This document shows, one piece after another, positions 13,847 through 20,470 of a DNA stretch of 64,000 nucleotides. The position numbers and the translations under genes are program-made. The notes beneath the pieces were generated by a model. It did not search any database and was not told the origin of the DNA. It saw nothing but the letters and a program-made list of their open reading frames with translations. The stretch's first letter is position 1. Each line of letters opens with the position of its first letter. The DNA lies in NCBI GenBank assembly GCA_028713915.1, contig JAQTNK010000011.1:35426-99425 (forward strand). Reading direction: 5' to 3'. The DNA is from Rhodocyclaceae bacterium. GTDB taxonomy: Bacteria > Pseudomonadota > Gammaproteobacteria > Burkholderiales > Rhodocyclaceae.

Positions 13847-15360
13847 CCAGCCGGCGAATACTGTTCGCGCAGCACGTTCTTCTGCACCTTGCCCATGGCG
13901 TTGCGCGGCAGGGCGTCGACCAGATGCACGCGCTTGGGCAGCTTGAAGGCGGCGAGTTCGCCGCGCAGCGCGGCGAGGATGGCGGCCTCGGTCAGCGCCG
14001 CGCCGGCGGGATTTTGCTGGCGCACGACGACGGCGGTCACCGCTTCGCCGAAATCGGCATGCGGCAGGCCGATGACGGCGGACTCGGCGACGCCGGGCAG
14101 CGCATCGATCATGTCCTCGATTTCCTTCGGATAGACGTTGAGGCCGCCGCTGATGACCAGGTCCTTGGCGCGGCCGCTGATGCTGAGGTAGCCGTCGGCG
14201 CTCAGCGCGCCGACGTCGCCGGTCTTGAACCAGCCGTCGGCGGTGAATTCCGCGCGCGTCTTTTCCGGCATCTGCCAGTAGCCGACGAAGACGTTGTCGC
14301 CCTTGACCTGGATGTTGCCGATTGCGCCCGCCGCGCAGGCCATGCCTTTGTCATCGACGATGCGCACCGCCGTGCCCGGCAGCGGCAAGCCGACGGTGCC
14401 GCCGCGGCGCTCGCCGGCGTAGGGATTGGAAGTGAACATGCCGCCTTCGGTCATGCCGTAGCGCTCGAGGATGGTGTGGCCGGTGCGGGCGCGGAAGGCG
14501 TCGAAGGTTTCGCGCAGCAGCGGCGCAGAGCCGGAGACAAAGAGGCGCATGTGGCGCACGGCGGCGGCGGTCAAGCCGGGCGCCTGCAGCAGGCGCACGT
14601 AGTAGGTCGGCACGCCCATGAAGACGGTCGCGTGCGGCAGCAGGGCGAGCGCGCGGCGGGCGTCGAATTTCGGCTCGAACAGCATCGCCGAGCCGTTCAG
14701 CAGCGCGCAGTGGCAGGCGACGAAGAGGCCGTGGACGTGGAAGATCGGCAGCATGTGCAGCAGCACGTCGCCGGGTTCGAAGCGCCAATAGTCGTGCAGC
14801 GTCTGCGCGTTGACCGCGAGGTTGGCGTGCGACAGCATCGCGCCCTTGGAGCGGCCGGTGGTGCCCGAGGTGTAGAGGATGGCGGCGAGGTCGTCGCCGC
14901 GGCGCGCGACCGTCTTGAAGTCATCGGCCTGCGGCGCGGCGGCATCGATCAGCGAGCCGCGTCCGGCGTCGTCGAGTTCCAGCAGGTGCGCCACGCCCGC
15001 CTGGCGCGCCGCGGCGGCGGCAAGCGCGCGCGCCTGCGGCCGGCAGACGAAAAGGCCCGGCTTGGCGTCAGCGAGGAAATAGTCGATTTCGTGGCGCCGG
15101 TAGGCCGGGTTCAGCGGCAGGAAGACCATGCCGGCGCGCAGCGCCGCAAGATAGAGCACCAGCGCTGCCGGCGTCTTCTCCACTTGCGCGGCGACGCGGT
15201 CGCCGGGGCGCAGGCCCAACGCGACGATCAGGTTGGCGAGACGGCCCGAGGCACGCTCGATGTCGCCGTAGCTCCAAGTGCCGCCGTCGGGCAGGATCAG
15301 GCAAGCGGCTTGCGAATCCTCGGGAAAGCCGGCGGCGAGCAGGGAATACAGGTTGCTCAT
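13843..15360 (-). CDS. matB: Malonyl-CoA synthetase (MatB)
   Basis: MatB activates malonate (and in some species methylmalonate) with ATP and CoA. The 505-residue protein has the adenylate-forming motifs ILYTSGTTGRSKGAMLSH (P-loop, about 163-180), the ERYGMTEGG motif, GWFKTGDVG and the C-terminal catalytic Lys region PRNAMGKVQK. The 1080-residue track ORF running to 17085 is not a fusion: the ATG at 15360 gives the normal length and lies 2 bases after the malonyl-CoA decarboxylase stop. The pair converts malonate to acetyl-CoA. Confidence 0.92.
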   Translation of the reverse strand: MSNLYSLLAAGFPEDSQAACLILPDGGTWSYGDIERASGRLANLIVALGLRPGDRVAAQVEKTPAALVLYLAALRAGMVFLPLNPAYRRHEIDYFLADAKPGLFVCRPQARALAAAAARQAGVAHLLELDDAGRGSLIDAAAPQADDFKTVARRGDDLAAILYTSGTTGRSKGAMLSHANLAVNAQTLHDYWRFEPGDVLLHMLPIFHVHGLFVACHCALLNGSAMLFEPKFDARRALALLPHATVFMGVPTYYVRLLQAPGLTAAAVRHMRLFVSGSAPLLRETFDAFRARTGHTILERYGMTEGGMFTSNPYAGERRGGTVGLPLPGTAVRIVDDKGMACAAGAIGNIQVKGDNVFVGYWQMPEKTRAEFTADGWFKTGDVGALSADGYLSISGRAKDLVISGGLNVYPKEIEDMIDALPGVAESAVIGLPHADFGEAVTAVVVRQQNPAGAALTEAAILAALRGELAAFKLPKRVHLVDALPRNAMGKVQKNVLREQYSPAG

Positions 15361-15362
15361 GC

Positions 15363-16679
15363 CTAGTCGATCTTCGCCAGCCGGCGCACGCCGGCCGACA
15401 TGGCGACGGTGCCTTCGGTGACGAAGGACTCGACGTTCTTCTCGATTTCGTCGGGATTGTAGAGATAGTTCATCATCAGGCCGTAAGACTGCTTGAAGCC
15501 CTTGAATGAGGTGTCGCCGAGCGGATTGAGGCGCTCGATGCGCGCGCCGTTGCCGAGATGGAAACGCGCCACCGGCTCGTAGGGCAAGGACCCGCTCTTG
15601 GCCTGCGCCAGGTAGCGGGCGGCCAGCCGCAGCAAGGGCTCGCGCAGATGGCGCGCGGTGTTGCGGTTCTTCGACCACTCGCCGGTGGCGAGCTGGGCGG
15701 CGTCGAGCTCGATGCCGACCTCGGCGAGCACGCCGGGGTTGCGCTTGACCCAGCCGCTGAGCTGCGGAATCGGCGACAGCGTGGCGAACGTCCTGAGCTT
15801 CGGGAAATCGCGCTTCAAGTCGTCGATGACGCGCTTCAGCAGGAAGTTGCCGAAGGAAATGCCGCGCAGCCCGGCCTGCGTGTTGGAGATCGAATAGAAG
15901 ATCGCGGTATCGGCGCGGCGGGCGTCGAACACCGGCGCATGCTCGTCGAGCAGCACCTGGATGTTGTCGGCGAGATGGTCGGTGAGCGCCACCTCGACGA
16001 AAATCAGCGGCTCCATCGGCATGCGCGGATGGAAGAAGGCATAGCAGCGGCGGTCGGAATCGAGCCGGTTCTTGAGGTCGGTCCAGGAACGAATTTCGTG
16101 CACCGCCTCGTACTCGATGAGCTTCTCCAGCAGCACGGCCGGCGAGTTCCAGGTGATGCGCCGCAGTTCGAGAAAGCCGACGTCGAACCAGGCCGTCAGC
16201 CGCGCTTCGAGCTCGCGGTCGAGCGCCGCCAGTTCGGGGTCGTCGTCGAGATAGCGCAAGAGGTCGGCGCGCAGGTCGACGAGGAACTTGACGCCCTGCG
16301 GCAGCGCATTGAACTGCGTGAGGATGCGGATGCGCCGCGAGCGCATGGCGGCGCGCAGGCCGGTTTCGGCGTCCCATTGCGCCGGCGTGCCGATGGCCGC
16401 CTGCCAGGTCTCGTGCGCCGTCGCCACCGCTTGCGGGTCGGGGCCGAACTCCATCGCGATCAGGCGCAGGAATTCGCGCCGGCCGCCGTCGCCCAGCTTG
16501 AGGTAGGTTTCGCCGAGCCGCGCCGCGCGATTGCGCGCCGAGACTTCGCCGCCGACGCGCGCCGCACATTCGTTGAGCTGTTCGCGGACGCGATTGCGCT
16601 CGCGGGCGTTCAGCGTTTCGCCGCCGCCGCCGACGATCTTCCTGATGCGCTTGAGGCTGCGCTTGACCACATTTTCCAT
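15363..16679 (-). CDS. Malonyl-CoA decarboxylase
   Basis: The enzyme decarboxylates malonyl-CoA to acetyl-CoA. The 438 residues show a helical N-terminal domain and a GNAT-like catalytic domain with YAFFHPRMPMEPLIFVEVAL, TAIFYSISNTQAGLRGISFGNFLLK and FATLSPIPQLSGW, all characteristic of MCD. The final segment GDTSFKGFKQSYGLMMNYLY is also typical. I place the start at the ATG at 16679, preceded by AGGGAG, instead of 16736. It is translated just ahead of matB in a two-gene malonate operon; no transporter is adjacent. Confidence 0.93.
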   Translation of the reverse strand: MENVVKRSLKRIRKIVGGGGETLNARERNRVREQLNECAARVGGEVSARNRAARLGETYLKLGDGGRREFLRLIAMEFGPDPQAVATAHETWQAAIGTPAQWDAETGLRAAMRSRRIRILTQFNALPQGVKFLVDLRADLLRYLDDDPELAALDRELEARLTAWFDVGFLELRRITWNSPAVLLEKLIEYEAVHEIRSWTDLKNRLDSDRRCYAFFHPRMPMEPLIFVEVALTDHLADNIQVLLDEHAPVFDARRADTAIFYSISNTQAGLRGISFGNFLLKRVIDDLKRDFPKLRTFATLSPIPQLSGWVKRNPGVLAEVGIELDAAQLATGEWSKNRNTARHLREPLLRLAARYLAQAKSGSLPYEPVARFHLGNGARIERLNPLGDTSFKGFKQSYGLMMNYLYNPDEIEKNVESFVTEGTVAMSAGVRRLAKID

Positions 16680-16784: not shown

Positions 16785-17543
16785 CTACAAGGCGTCGACG
16801 AGTTCCTGCAAGTCGGCGGGCGCGACGTCCGAGACGGCGCGGAACGCCATGCCCGCGCGCACCTTGCCCATGACATGGTAGCCCTGCAAGGTGTAGGGCG
16901 AAGCCGCGGCCGCGCCCGCGGCGGCGGGCCAGACGAAGACGTCGATCAGATGCCGGCCGCGCCGATAGACGACGACGGCGACGGGGTGGCGATCGAGGTA
17001 ATCGAGCCGCCCGCCGACGAGCTCGAAGCCTTGCGCCGCGAGATCGGGCACCGGCGGCGAGAAGTCGAGCTTGCCGTTGAACCACGGCTTGACCGTGTGC
17101 TGGTCGGTCGAGGCCACATCGATGACATGGTTCGTGAGCAAAGCGCGGACATGGCCGGCGACCGCTTCGTCGGCGAGCCGCGCGTCGGCCGACGGGCGCA
17201 GCGGCAGCACCACGGCGAGCACCAGCGCGGCGCAGGCGGCGGCCACCAGGCCGGCACCGTTGAGCAGGCGCCAGACGCGGCTGCCGAAAGCGACGCGGCG
17301 CGGCCGCCTGCGGCCGTTCGCCGCACCGTCCGGCAGCGCGGCTGCGATGTCGGCACGCAGCGTCGCCGGCGCGCGATGGTAGCGCGCGGCGCCGCGCACG
17401 GCGGCCGCGGCCGCCAGCCGTTGCCGGACGCTCGCGCAGGCGTCGCAGGCGGCGACATGCGCGGCGAGCGCCGCTTCCGTGCGCGCCTCCAGTTCGCGGT
17501 CGAGCGACAGCGGCAGCAGAGGCCGCGCTTCCGGGCAGTCCAT
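16785..17543 (-). CDS. Membrane anti-sigma factor with zinc-finger N-terminus
   Basis: The 252-residue protein begins MDCPEARPLLPLSLD, then HVAACDACASVRQRL: the H-x3-C-x2-C pattern of a zinc-binding anti-sigma domain (about 1-45). One transmembrane segment follows (about 94-114, AGLVAAACAALVLAVVLPL) and then a periplasmic domain. It lies 2 bases after the ECF sigma stop, so it is the likely cognate anti-sigma. The periplasmic part has paired beta strands (RLDYLDRHPVAVVVYRRGRH) and probably senses an envelope signal that is not identifiable here. Confidence 0.87.
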   Translation of the reverse strand: MDCPEARPLLPLSLDRELEARTEAALAAHVAACDACASVRQRLAAAAAVRGAARYHRAPATLRADIAAALPDGAANGRRRPRRVAFGSRVWRLLNGAGLVAAACAALVLAVVLPLRPSADARLADEAVAGHVRALLTNHVIDVASTDQHTVKPWFNGKLDFSPPVPDLAAQGFELVGGRLDYLDRHPVAVVVYRRGRHLIDVFVWPAAAGAAAASPYTLQGYHVMGKVRAGMAFRAVSDVAPADLQELVDAL

Positions 17544-17545
17544 CG

Positions 17546-18082
17546 TCAGGCTCCGCTCCGTTCGGCCGCCAGGTAGCGGGCCAGCAGGCGCCGGCCGCGC
17601 GCCAGGCGCGACATCACCGTGCCGACGGGAATCGCCAGCACGGCGGCGATGTCCTTGTAGGCCATGTCTTCGAGTTCGCGCAGGACGATCACTTCTCGAA
17701 ACTCCAGCGGCAGCCGCTCGATGGCCGCGTCGACGACGCGGTCGGCGTCGGCGCGCAGCGCCAGCGTTTCGGGATCGCCCTGTGCAGCCGTCGCACCATG
17801 TATTTCATCGTCATATTCCACCTGCGCCGAAGCGGCGCCGTTGCGCGCCAGCCACGTGAAGCACGTGTTGCGCACGATGGCCAGCAGCCACGGCCTGGCG
17901 TTGTCGCCGCGCAAGCCGTCGAATGCGGCGTAGGCGCGCAGGTACGCTTCCTGCACGATGTCGCGGGCATTCTGGTCGTCGCGCGCCAGCCAGCGCGCCA
18001 GGTTGAAGGCGGCATCCAGATGCGGCAACGCCAGCGCTTCGAAACGCGCCCGCTTGTCCGGCAAGGTCGATTCGTCAGCCAT
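17546..18082 (-). CDS. ECF RNA polymerase sigma factor
   Basis: The 178-residue protein has region 2 (FNLARWLARDDQNARDIVQEAYLRAYAAF, about 27-55) and region 4 (LPLEFREVIVLRELEDMAYKDIAAVLAIPVGTVMSRLARGRRLL, about 122-165), the extracytoplasmic-function type. The start is the ATG at 18082; upstream codons in the track are shadow. It forms a two-gene unit with the anti-sigma. The divergent phosphoesterase and YceI genes are likely targets, because the shared intergenic region holds a large dyad. Confidence 0.93.
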   Translation of the reverse strand: MADESTLPDKRARFEALALPHLDAAFNLARWLARDDQNARDIVQEAYLRAYAAFDGLRGDNARPWLLAIVRNTCFTWLARNGAASAQVEYDDEIHGATAAQGDPETLALRADADRVVDAAIERLPLEFREVIVLRELEDMAYKDIAAVLAIPVGTVMSRLARGRRLLARYLAAERSGA

Positions 18083-18093
18083 CGTCTCCTTCT

Positions 18094-18166
18094 GCAATAC
18101 CTGTTTTCGAAGCGGAATATTCCCGCGCCGCGGCGGGGAATAAACGGTGGTCCCTTCGAGTATTGC
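18094..18166. promoter_or_regulatory. Nested inverted repeats between ECF sigma and phosphoesterase genes
   Basis: Three symmetric layers share nearly one centre. The outer arms are GCAATAC (18094-18100) and GTATTGC (18160-18166). The middle arms are CGAAG (18108-18112) and CTTCG (18154-18158). The core at 18118-18142 has TATTCCC and GGGAATA flanking a self-complementary CGCCGCGGCG. It occupies the divergent intergenic region, so it could be an operator read by both transcripts or a folded leader. No known regulator motif is recognised. Confidence 0.6.
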
Positions 18167-18204
18167 ACTGTGAATACGGAGCACTGGATGATGGAGGATA
18201 GACC

Positions 18205-19110
18205 ATGAAGCACGCTCTTGATCGACGCGAATTCCTTCGCCTTGCCGCCTTCGGGGGCATGGCCTACGCTTCCGGCCTCGGCGCCGCCGGCTATGGGCCC
18301 GGCGCGGCCGCGGCCAGCGGCGCCCAGGCGGAGGACTTCTATTTCGTGCAGCTTTCCGACACGCACTGGGGCTTCGAGGGCGCGCCGAACCCGGATTCGC
18401 GCGGCACGCTGCCAAAGGCGATCGCGGCCGTCAATGCCTTGTCGCCGCCGCCCGATTTCATCGTCTTCACCGGCGACCTGACGCACCTGACGCTCGACGG
18501 CAAGGTGCGGCGCGAGCGCATGCAGCAGTTCCACGACATCGTCGCCAGGCTGAACGTGCGCAACGTGCGCTTTCTCGCCGGCGAGCACGACGCCTCGGTG
18601 GACCACGGCCAGGCGTTCCACGAAATGTTCGGCGCCAGCTACTACACGTTCAACCACAAGGGCGTGCATTTCATCGCCCTCGACAACGTCTCCGATCCCA
18701 GCGGCGCGCTCGGCGACGGCCAGCTGGACTGGCTTGCCGACGACCTGGCGAAGCTGCGCCGCGACCAGCCCATCGTCATCCTGACGCATCGGCCGCTGTT
18801 CGATCTCTACCCGGCGTGGGGCTGGGCGACGCGCGACGGCGCGCGCGCAATCGCTATGCTGATGCCCTTTCAGAACGTCACGGTCTTCTACGGCCACATC
18901 CACCAGCTCAACGAACACATGACGGGCCACATCGCCCACCATGCGGCGAAGTCGCTGATCTTTCCCTTGCCGCCGCCGGGCGAAGACGACCACCAGCCGC
19001 TGCCCTGGGATGCATCGCAGCCGTACCGCGGACTCGGCTGGCGCGAAGTCGAGGCCGAGCCGCAGCAGGCGGCCTACGACGTCCAGGAACGGCCGGTACT
19101 GGGGAGTTGA
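18205..19110 (+). CDS. Tat-exported metallophosphoesterase
   Basis: The 301-residue calcineurin-like phosphoesterase has its metal motifs in order: QLSDTHWG (Asp-x-His), FTGDLTH (Gly-Asp), GEHDAS in place of the usual GNHD, TH near 193 and the final GHIHQLN. The N-terminus DRREFLRLAAFGGMAYASG is a Tat-like signal, so the protein probably acts folded in the periplasm. Asn to Glu in the GNHD motif is unusual but occurs in some exported relatives. It precedes a yceI gene by 5 bases and is divergent from the ECF sigma gene. Confidence 0.87.
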   Translation: MKHALDRREFLRLAAFGGMAYASGLGAAGYGPGAAAASGAQAEDFYFVQLSDTHWGFEGAPNPDSRGTLPKAIAAVNALSPPPDFIVFTGDLTHLTLDGKVRRERMQQFHDIVARLNVRNVRFLAGEHDASVDHGQAFHEMFGASYYTFNHKGVHFIALDNVSDPSGALGDGQLDWLADDLAKLRRDQPIVILTHRPLFDLYPAWGWATRDGARAIAMLMPFQNVTVFYGHIHQLNEHMTGHIAHHAAKSLIFPLPPPGEDDHQPLPWDASQPYRGLGWREVEAEPQQAAYDVQERPVLGS

Positions 19111-19115
19111 GCGCC

Positions 19116-19694
19116 ATGACCGCGAGCATGAAAACGAACATCCGGCGGGCGGCGACGGCCCTCGCCGCCGGCGCGGCGGCCGCCCTCGCCGCTTCGGCCG
19201 TCGTCGCCGCGCTGGCGACGGCCGGCCAAAGCAAGATCTCATTTCGCGCGACGCAGCAGGACGTGCCGGTCGACGGCGAGTTCAAGAAGTTCTCCGCCAA
19301 CGTCGACTTCGATCCCGCCAAGCCTGCCGCCGGCCGCGTCGATCTGGCCATCGACCTGGCGTCGGTGGCCACCGGCAGCAGCGACGCCGACGAGCTGCTG
19401 AAGGGCAAGGCCTTCTTCGACGCCGCGCAGTTTCCGCAAGCGCGCTTTGCCGCAAAGACCATCACCGCGACCGGCGCCGGGAGCTTCCAGGCCAGCGGCC
19501 AGTTCAGCCTCAAAGGCCGCAGCGCGCCGCTGCGGGTGCCGTTCACGGCGCGGCCCGAAGGCGCCGGCCTGCGCATCGAGGGCAGCGTGCCGCTCTCGCG
19601 CCTGGCCTACAAGGTGGGCGAAGGCGAGTGGGCCGACACCGGCACGCTCGCCGATCAGGTGCAGATCCGCTTCAGCCTTTACCTGCCGCATTGA
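19116..19694 (+). CDS. YceI family periplasmic lipid-binding protein
   Basis: The 192-residue protein has a signal peptide (TALAAGAAAALAASAVVAALATA) and a YceI beta-barrel: SKISFRATQQDVPVDGEFKKFSANVDFDP, then GKAFFDAAQFPQARFAAKTI and SGQFSLKGRSAPLRVPF. YceI proteins bind polyisoprenoids or similar amphiphiles. I use the ATG at 19116, 5 bases after the phosphoesterase stop. The neighbourhood suggests an ECF-controlled envelope response, though that link is inference. Confidence 0.88.
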   Translation: MTASMKTNIRRAATALAAGAAAALAASAVVAALATAGQSKISFRATQQDVPVDGEFKKFSANVDFDPAKPAAGRVDLAIDLASVATGSSDADELLKGKAFFDAAQFPQARFAAKTITATGAGSFQASGQFSLKGRSAPLRVPFTARPEGAGLRIEGSVPLSRLAYKVGEGEWADTGTLADQVQIRFSLYLPH

Positions 19695-19804: not shown

Positions 19805-20470
19805 ATGAACGCAATTGCAAGCACGACAAGTCGCGGCCGCGGCGCCTGGCGGGTCTTCTGCACCGTGCTGTGCGTCGCGCTTGCCGGCGGCTGCCACCGC
19901 GCGCCGACGCCGGCAGCAGGCGTCGCCGCCGCGCCGCCCAACGCGTCCGCGAGGGACATCAACGTCGCGGGCGTGCACAACGCCAGCGACGCCGAGCTTT
20001 TCCGCGCCGCCGAAAGCGGCGATGCGAGCGCCGTCGCGCTGCAGATCGATCACGGCGCGAACGTGAATGCGCAGAACAACCTCGGACGAACGCCGTTGTT
20101 CGCGGCGGTGTTCTACGGCCGCGCGGACGCCGCCAGGGCCCTGCTCGGCAAAGGCGCGACGGTCGGCCTCGCCGACGCCGGCGGCCTCACGCCGCTGCAC
20201 GCCGCCGTGCTGGCCGGCAACGCCGATCTGGTGGCGATGCTGATCGCTGCCGGCGCCGACATCAACGCCCGCTCGGCCGCGGGCATGACGCCCCTGCACT
20301 TGGCGGCGGCGACGGGGCAGCCCGACTTGACGAAGTTGCTGCTCGCCGACGGCGCCGACAAGTCGATTCGCAACAATCAGGGCGAGACGGCGGCCAAGCT
20401 GGCGGAAACCAATCGGCACGCCATCACGCTGGCGACGCTGCAAGGGGCCAAGGCCCGCGCCGCGAAGTAG
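19805..20470 (+). CDS. Ankyrin-repeat lipoprotein
   Basis: The 221-residue protein has a signal peptide with a probable lipobox (VALAGGC, Cys about 30), then four ankyrin repeats: ELFRAAESGDASAV, GRTPLFAAVFYGRADAA, GLTPLHAAVLAGNADLV and GMTPLHLAAATGQPDLT, with a degenerate cap. Ankyrin domains bind proteins; here the domain would be tethered in the periplasm. The 110-base gap before it shows no obvious terminator. The partner is unknown. Confidence 0.85.
   Translation: MNAIASTTSRGRGAWRVFCTVLCVALAGGCHRAPTPAAGVAAAPPNASARDINVAGVHNASDAELFRAAESGDASAVALQIDHGANVNAQNNLGRTPLFAAVFYGRADAARALLGKGATVGLADAGGLTPLHAAVLAGNADLVAMLIAAGADINARSAAGMTPLHLAAATGQPDLTKLLLADGADKSIRNNQGETAAKLAETNRHAITLATLQGAKARAAK

Follow-up and report, generated by a model that had tools for sequence, protein, structure and literature searches.

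The window analysed here is a stretch of 64,000 nucleotides from the genome of a Rhodocyclaceae bacterium (GenBank assembly GCA_028713915.1, contig JAQTNK010000011.1, positions 35,426 to 99,425), and the coordinates below are those of the window. An ECF sigma factor gene and a metallophosphoesterase gene are read divergently from a 122-nt intergenic region, which holds a nested palindrome at 18094-18166. The features of the locus are as follows.

16785 to 17543, minus strand: anti-sigma factor of 252 aa (Pfam zf-HC2, above cut-off), starting 2 nt past the sigma stop codon
17546 to 18082, minus strand: ECF sigma factor of 178 aa with regions 2 and 4 (Pfam Sigma70_r2 and r4_2)
18093 to 18124, minus strand: predicted sigma operon promoter (-35 GGGAATA at 18124-18118, 17-bp spacer, -10 GTATTG(CA) at 18100-18093)
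18108 to 18158: middle palindrome layer, CGAAG/CTTCG, off-centre inside the promoter spacers; coincidental
18125 to 18135: G+C-rich gap of 11 bp between the -35 boxes, GCGCCGCGGCG, of varying length in relatives
18136 to 18167, plus strand: predicted promoter of the phosphoesterase-YceI operon (-35 GGGAATA at 18136-18142, 17-bp spacer, -10 GTATTG(CA) at 18160-18167)
18205 to 19110, plus strand: metallophosphoesterase of 301 aa (Pfam Metallophos)
19116 to 19694, plus strand: YceI-family protein (Pfam YceI, 102.8 bits), starting 5 nt past the phosphoesterase stop codon

The best NCBIfam model for the sigma factor was NF009185/PRK12533, at 228.4 bits, slightly under its curated cut-off of 248; the next model scored 111.7 bits, and no published function for PRK12533/NF009185 was found. 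The anti-sigma factor has an N-terminal zf-HC2 domain with an H-x3-C-x2-C motif, followed by a C-terminal domain, and one predicted membrane span (a hydrophobic stretch, judged by eye). A tblastn match to it adjoins the sigma gene in essentially all relatives. The sigma gene itself was patchily distributed: it turned up in 14 of the 299 family genomes and in none of the four others examined from the same genus, which fits a module that is moved horizontally or often lost.

On the other side of the palindrome, the phosphoesterase carries a twin-arginine signal, DRREFLRLA, identified by eye, and the motifs DTH, GDLTH, GEHD and GHIH. The YceI gene, predicted to be the second gene of the divergent operon, is retained in the two closest relatives (loci L003 and L004, with 72% sigma identity) and in locus L007. 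Just past it on the same strand, at 19805-20470, lies a gene whose ankyrin-repeat product appears to have a signal peptide.

The first-pass annotation had described three nested pairs of inverted arms with almost one centre. All three pairs were present, with the outer arms one base longer on each side than described: the outer arms are TGCAATAC at 18093-18100 and GTATTGCA at 18160-18167, the middle arms CGAAG at 18108-18112 and CTTCG at 18154-18158, and the core arms TATTCCC at 18118-18124 and GGGAATA at 18136-18142. The outer and core pairs are both centred exactly at 18130.0, whereas the centre of the middle pair, 18133, lies 3 bp away. Taken together, the outer and core arms form an asymmetric element, GGGAATA-N17-GTATTGCA, that is present twice and faces outward each time. 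The minus-strand copy reads GGGAATA TTCCGCTTCGAAAACAG GTATTGCA from 18124 to 18093, and the plus-strand copy GGGAATA AACGGTGGTCCCTTCGA GTATTGCA from 18136 to 18167; their spacers are equal in length (17 bp) and unrelated in sequence (18% identity). CTTCG falls 5 bases after GGGAATA in one spacer and 11 bases after it in the other, placing the middle layer outside the repeated element. Judged on its sequence, the element is laid out like an ECF sigma promoter, with -35 and -10 boxes, and two identical promoters of equal spacing set head to head necessarily produce inverted repeats nested about a common centre.

The suggestion that such symmetry is unlikely by chance depended on how the symmetry was described. 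As a bare palindrome it was only mildly unusual, since six centres in the window each have a double set of exact 7-bp arms inside 81 bp, compared with zero to two in five shuffled windows. As a repeated asymmetric element it was far from chance: GGGAATA-N17-GTATTGCA has two perfect matches in the window, compared with a shuffle mean of 0.19 even with up to three mismatches allowed. In the entire 3.84-Mb genome GGGAATA-N15..19-GTATTG matched twice, both times at the palindrome, and a reversed control pattern had no match. In the whole genomes of the two nearest relatives the strict pattern, searched as the element with GTAT, occurred solely as the divergent pair. A looser pattern gave three further sites in the genome of the window, one antisense within a gene, one with no nearby same-strand gene of at least 150 aa ahead of it, and one at 15342-15368 in the malonyl-CoA gene region of the window. 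These three look like chance matches. A wider regulon in this genome was considered and rejected, as the strict pattern gave this pair alone and the one-mismatch and loose matches look like scattered chance. No sigma-70-type promoter was found in 17900-18400.

To follow the element in other genomes, relative loci were gathered by sigma protein similarity, independently of the motif, giving 90 distinct loci including that of the window, and the region upstream of the sigma gene was searched for GGAATA-N15..18-GT[A/C/T]. The element was present on both strands in 52 of the 90 loci, compared with a shuffled expectation of 0.02, although such counts overstate independence, many relatives being near kin within one group of Acidobacteria. 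It was on the sigma strand alone in 16 loci, on the divergent strand alone in five and on neither in 17; many of these last are co-directional loci with the element upstream of the phosphoesterase gene, while for the rest either no match turned up or the contig ended. Pairs were also identified in Rhodocyclaceae, Paraburkholderia, Acetobacteraceae, Pseudomonas, other Gammaproteobacteria, a deltaproteobacterium and a planctomycete. Locus L042, of the cultured relative Paraburkholderia humisilvae LMG 29542, carries such a divergent pair. The spacing from GGAATA to GT was exactly 17 at 119 of 123 relative sites, with 15 to 18 permitted, and the rough consensus over these sites was CGGGAATAAA-N12..13-CGGT. 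The gap separating the -35 boxes, by contrast, ranged from 2 to 113 bp, which indicates two separate promoters.

The first-pass annotation had proposed that its reading would fail if relatives retaining both genes did not conserve the arms. In L003 and L004 the outer and core arms were conserved, and the long intergenic blocks shared with the window were TGCAATAC, TATTCCC, GGGAATA and GGTATTGC, whereas the spacers, the gap and the middle layer differed. Among 51 paired loci, the window was the only one with CTTCG in both spacers. The middle layer was thus rejected as a functional part, being unconserved in L003, L004 and the other paired loci.

Differences in gene order provided a natural control. 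A phosphoesterase homologue was identified in 73 of the 90 distinct loci, mostly in divergent orientation. Of the 58 loci with a divergent phosphoesterase gene, 45 had the element in front of both genes. Where the phosphoesterase gene was co-directional and upstream of the sigma gene (13 loci), the element preceded the phosphoesterase gene in 12 and the sigma gene in only one. The element therefore moves with gene order and marks the start of a transcription unit rather than the gap between the sigma and phosphoesterase genes. Its position upstream of the sigma operon, with fixed spacing, is that expected of an autoregulated ECF sigma promoter, as is the second expected feature, the same element upstream of the target unit in both divergent and co-directional loci. 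In loci without a phosphoesterase match, the candidate divergent genes (L034:1595-2908, L054:1073-2731 and L067:1549-2649) encode other domains (beta-propeller with cupredoxin, 2Fe-2S, metallo-beta-lactamase fold), and the target gene may be exchangeable.

Among characterised systems, the nearest parallel is the ECF26 promoter class of Sinorhizobium. The cross-species ECF26 consensus is a -35 GGAATA with a -10 GT, and the mapped promoter of the S. meliloti rpoE1 operon, GCCGGGAATAAATCCATAGCCCTCCGTGTCTTATCCTCG, has the layout GGGAATA-N17-GTCTT (PMC6180224). Both window sites fit GGAATA and GT with the same 17-bp spacing as the rpoE1-operon promoter; the mapped -10 elements there are GTC or GTT, in contrast to GTATTG here. 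The S. meliloti rpoE6 gene is divergent from its serine protease target, which has GGGAATA upstream (PMC6180224), and RpoE1 and RpoE4 respond to sulfite (PMC3511301). In both systems the sigma gene is followed by that of an anti-sigma factor, with an N-terminal domain, a membrane span and a periplasmic C-terminal domain in ECF26 and a similar predicted layout here, but the targets are sulfite oxidase or a serine protease there and the metallophosphoesterase and YceI protein here. The window sigma and RpoE6 share 39% identity over 130 aa, yet the two differ in their best models (for RpoE6, PRK12511 at 129 bits and PRK12533 at 101.7; for the window sigma, PRK12533 at 228 and PRK12511 at 86). We therefore describe the promoter pair as ECF26-like and do not file the sigma factor in ECF26.

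Other known systems were less similar. SigH/SigR promoters have the form GGAAT...GTT with similar spacing. The actinobacterial SigH/SigR-RsrA system (ECF12) also shares with the window a related sigma factor (TIGR02947) and, by a weak match, an RsrA-type zinc-finger anti-sigma factor; both models fell below their cut-offs (TIGR02947 at 97.2 of 251.55 bits, TIGR03988 at 25.9 of 62.5), and the window anti-sigma differs in its predicted membrane span. The PhyR/NepR-EcfG system likewise has divergent units that are both fired by the locus-encoded sigma factor (review PMC8103513), but with another promoter consensus and partner-switching control, and neither PhyR nor NepR was seen at the window locus. 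Bradyrhizobium EcfF and Brucella BcrS were rejected as models on their differing promoter motifs, and P. syringae PSPTO_1043 as being of the RpoE-ChrR type.

The elements, their spacing, their conservation, their tracking of transcription-unit starts and their rarity can be read from the sequences directly, and together they led us to conclude, with high confidence, that the palindrome very probably consists of a divergent pair of promoters, set back to back and read by the ECF sigma factor encoded alongside. We infer the use of both promoters by this sigma factor, the transcript starts and the existence of an inducing signal. Such a signal would free the sigma factor from its membrane anti-sigma factor; the sigma would then bind RNA polymerase, and the complex would read GGGAATA as -35 and GTATTG as -10, 17 bp apart, firing both promoters. 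Leftward firing would raise the sigma/anti-sigma operon, giving positive autoregulation, a common trait of ECF sigmas (review PMC8103513), with delayed negative feedback; the two proteins rising together would make for a self-limiting burst. Rightward firing would produce the predicted Tat-exported metallophosphoesterase and the YceI protein, which are probably the response itself. With the -35 boxes only 11 bp apart, two polymerases may hinder each other.

Starts were predicted from the mapped S. meliloti ECF26 starts, which lie 11-12 nt past the GT as counted on the printed sequences (PMC6180224). On this basis transcription would begin at about 18089-18088 for the sigma operon and 18171-18172 for the phosphoesterase operon, with leaders of about 6-7 and 33 nt. 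Both predicted starts fall beyond the arms, and neither transcript would include the palindrome. The short sigma leader would also partly cut off the Shine-Dalgarno-like AGAAGGAG visible immediately before the start codon of the sigma gene. In the Acidobacteria group (L010-L030) the sigma ATG is 9-11 nt past the -10 GT, coinciding with the predicted start of what would be a leaderless mRNA; the corresponding distance in the window and its nearest relatives is 16-18 nt, for a leader of about 5-7 nt.

Three other explanations were weighed. The two sites could be ECF promoters fired mainly by another ECF sigma factor, or by several. There is precedent for such cross-regulation, as RpoE1, RpoE4 and RpoE6 of S. 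meliloti cross-activate one shared ECF26 promoter (PMC10880074), and the present genome has 12 candidate places for sigma-like proteins among the matches listed. However, the element adjoins this particular sigma gene across several phyla, and its strict pattern is absent elsewhere from this genome and those of the two nearest relatives, which indicates that it goes with this sigma factor; we consider a leading role for other sigmas very unlikely.

More improbable still is a single dimeric transcription factor that sits on the nested palindrome and regulates the divergent genes on either side. The exact common centre of the outer and core arms, at 18130, would suit such a factor, and TGCAATAC/GTATTGCA alone could form a pair of dyad half-sites. 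Against this, the half-to-half distance ranges over the 2 to 113 bp seen in relatives, the half-elements occur singly in the co-directional gene order, and in the loci examined no regulator gene other than those for the sigma and anti-sigma factors was conserved beside the site. The earlier proposal of a regulator binding both sides thus survives as a conserved element read both ways, with bidirectional regulation, and not as one regulator on one dyad.

The further proposal, an RNA hairpin made on either strand as an attenuator, terminator or small RNA, can hardly hold: the 73 nt did give better folds than shuffled sequence on either strand (z -2.4 and -3.5), but so would any inverted repeat, the full intergenic region reached only z -1.5, folding strength in paired relatives was uneven (z +0.8 to -4.5), the middle stem layer is the unconserved one, no Rfam match or terminator was found, and the starts predicted at about 18088 and 18172 leave the arms out of both transcripts.

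Back-to-back promoters activated by their own ECF sigma factor are a well-known, ordinary kind of self-reinforcing switch. What the present pair controls is less familiar. The phosphoesterase has GEHD in place of the GNHD usual in its superfamily, with glutamate replacing the metal-binding asparagine, and GEHD was present in 78 of 79 matched loci, across phyla, suggesting that these enzymes form a distinct subfamily. We found no role for this subfamily in the literature, and no relevant paper on an ECF sigma gene beside a metallophosphoesterase gene in the literature searched; the module appears to be unstudied. More tentatively, and with somewhat less than even confidence, we suggest that the sigma factor, the anti-sigma factor and the exported GEHD phosphoesterase may constitute a closed stress circuit, confined to a single locus and not previously described, that extends over Proteobacteria, Acidobacteria, Verrucomicrobiota and Planctomycetes; in it the sigma would fire only its own operon and one exported-enzyme unit, many members having a leaderless or near-leaderless sigma mRNA.

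Identical ECF promoters in divergent arrangement can be mistaken for a nested dyad, a pitfall in searches for palindromes. Read as two divergent promoters for the neighbouring sigma factor, the palindrome becomes a testable assignment of a sigma factor, its exact promoter sequence, both target operons and probably its whole regulon in this genome, and it attaches the switch to a little-known phosphoesterase module with glutamate at the usual position of a metal-binding asparagine.
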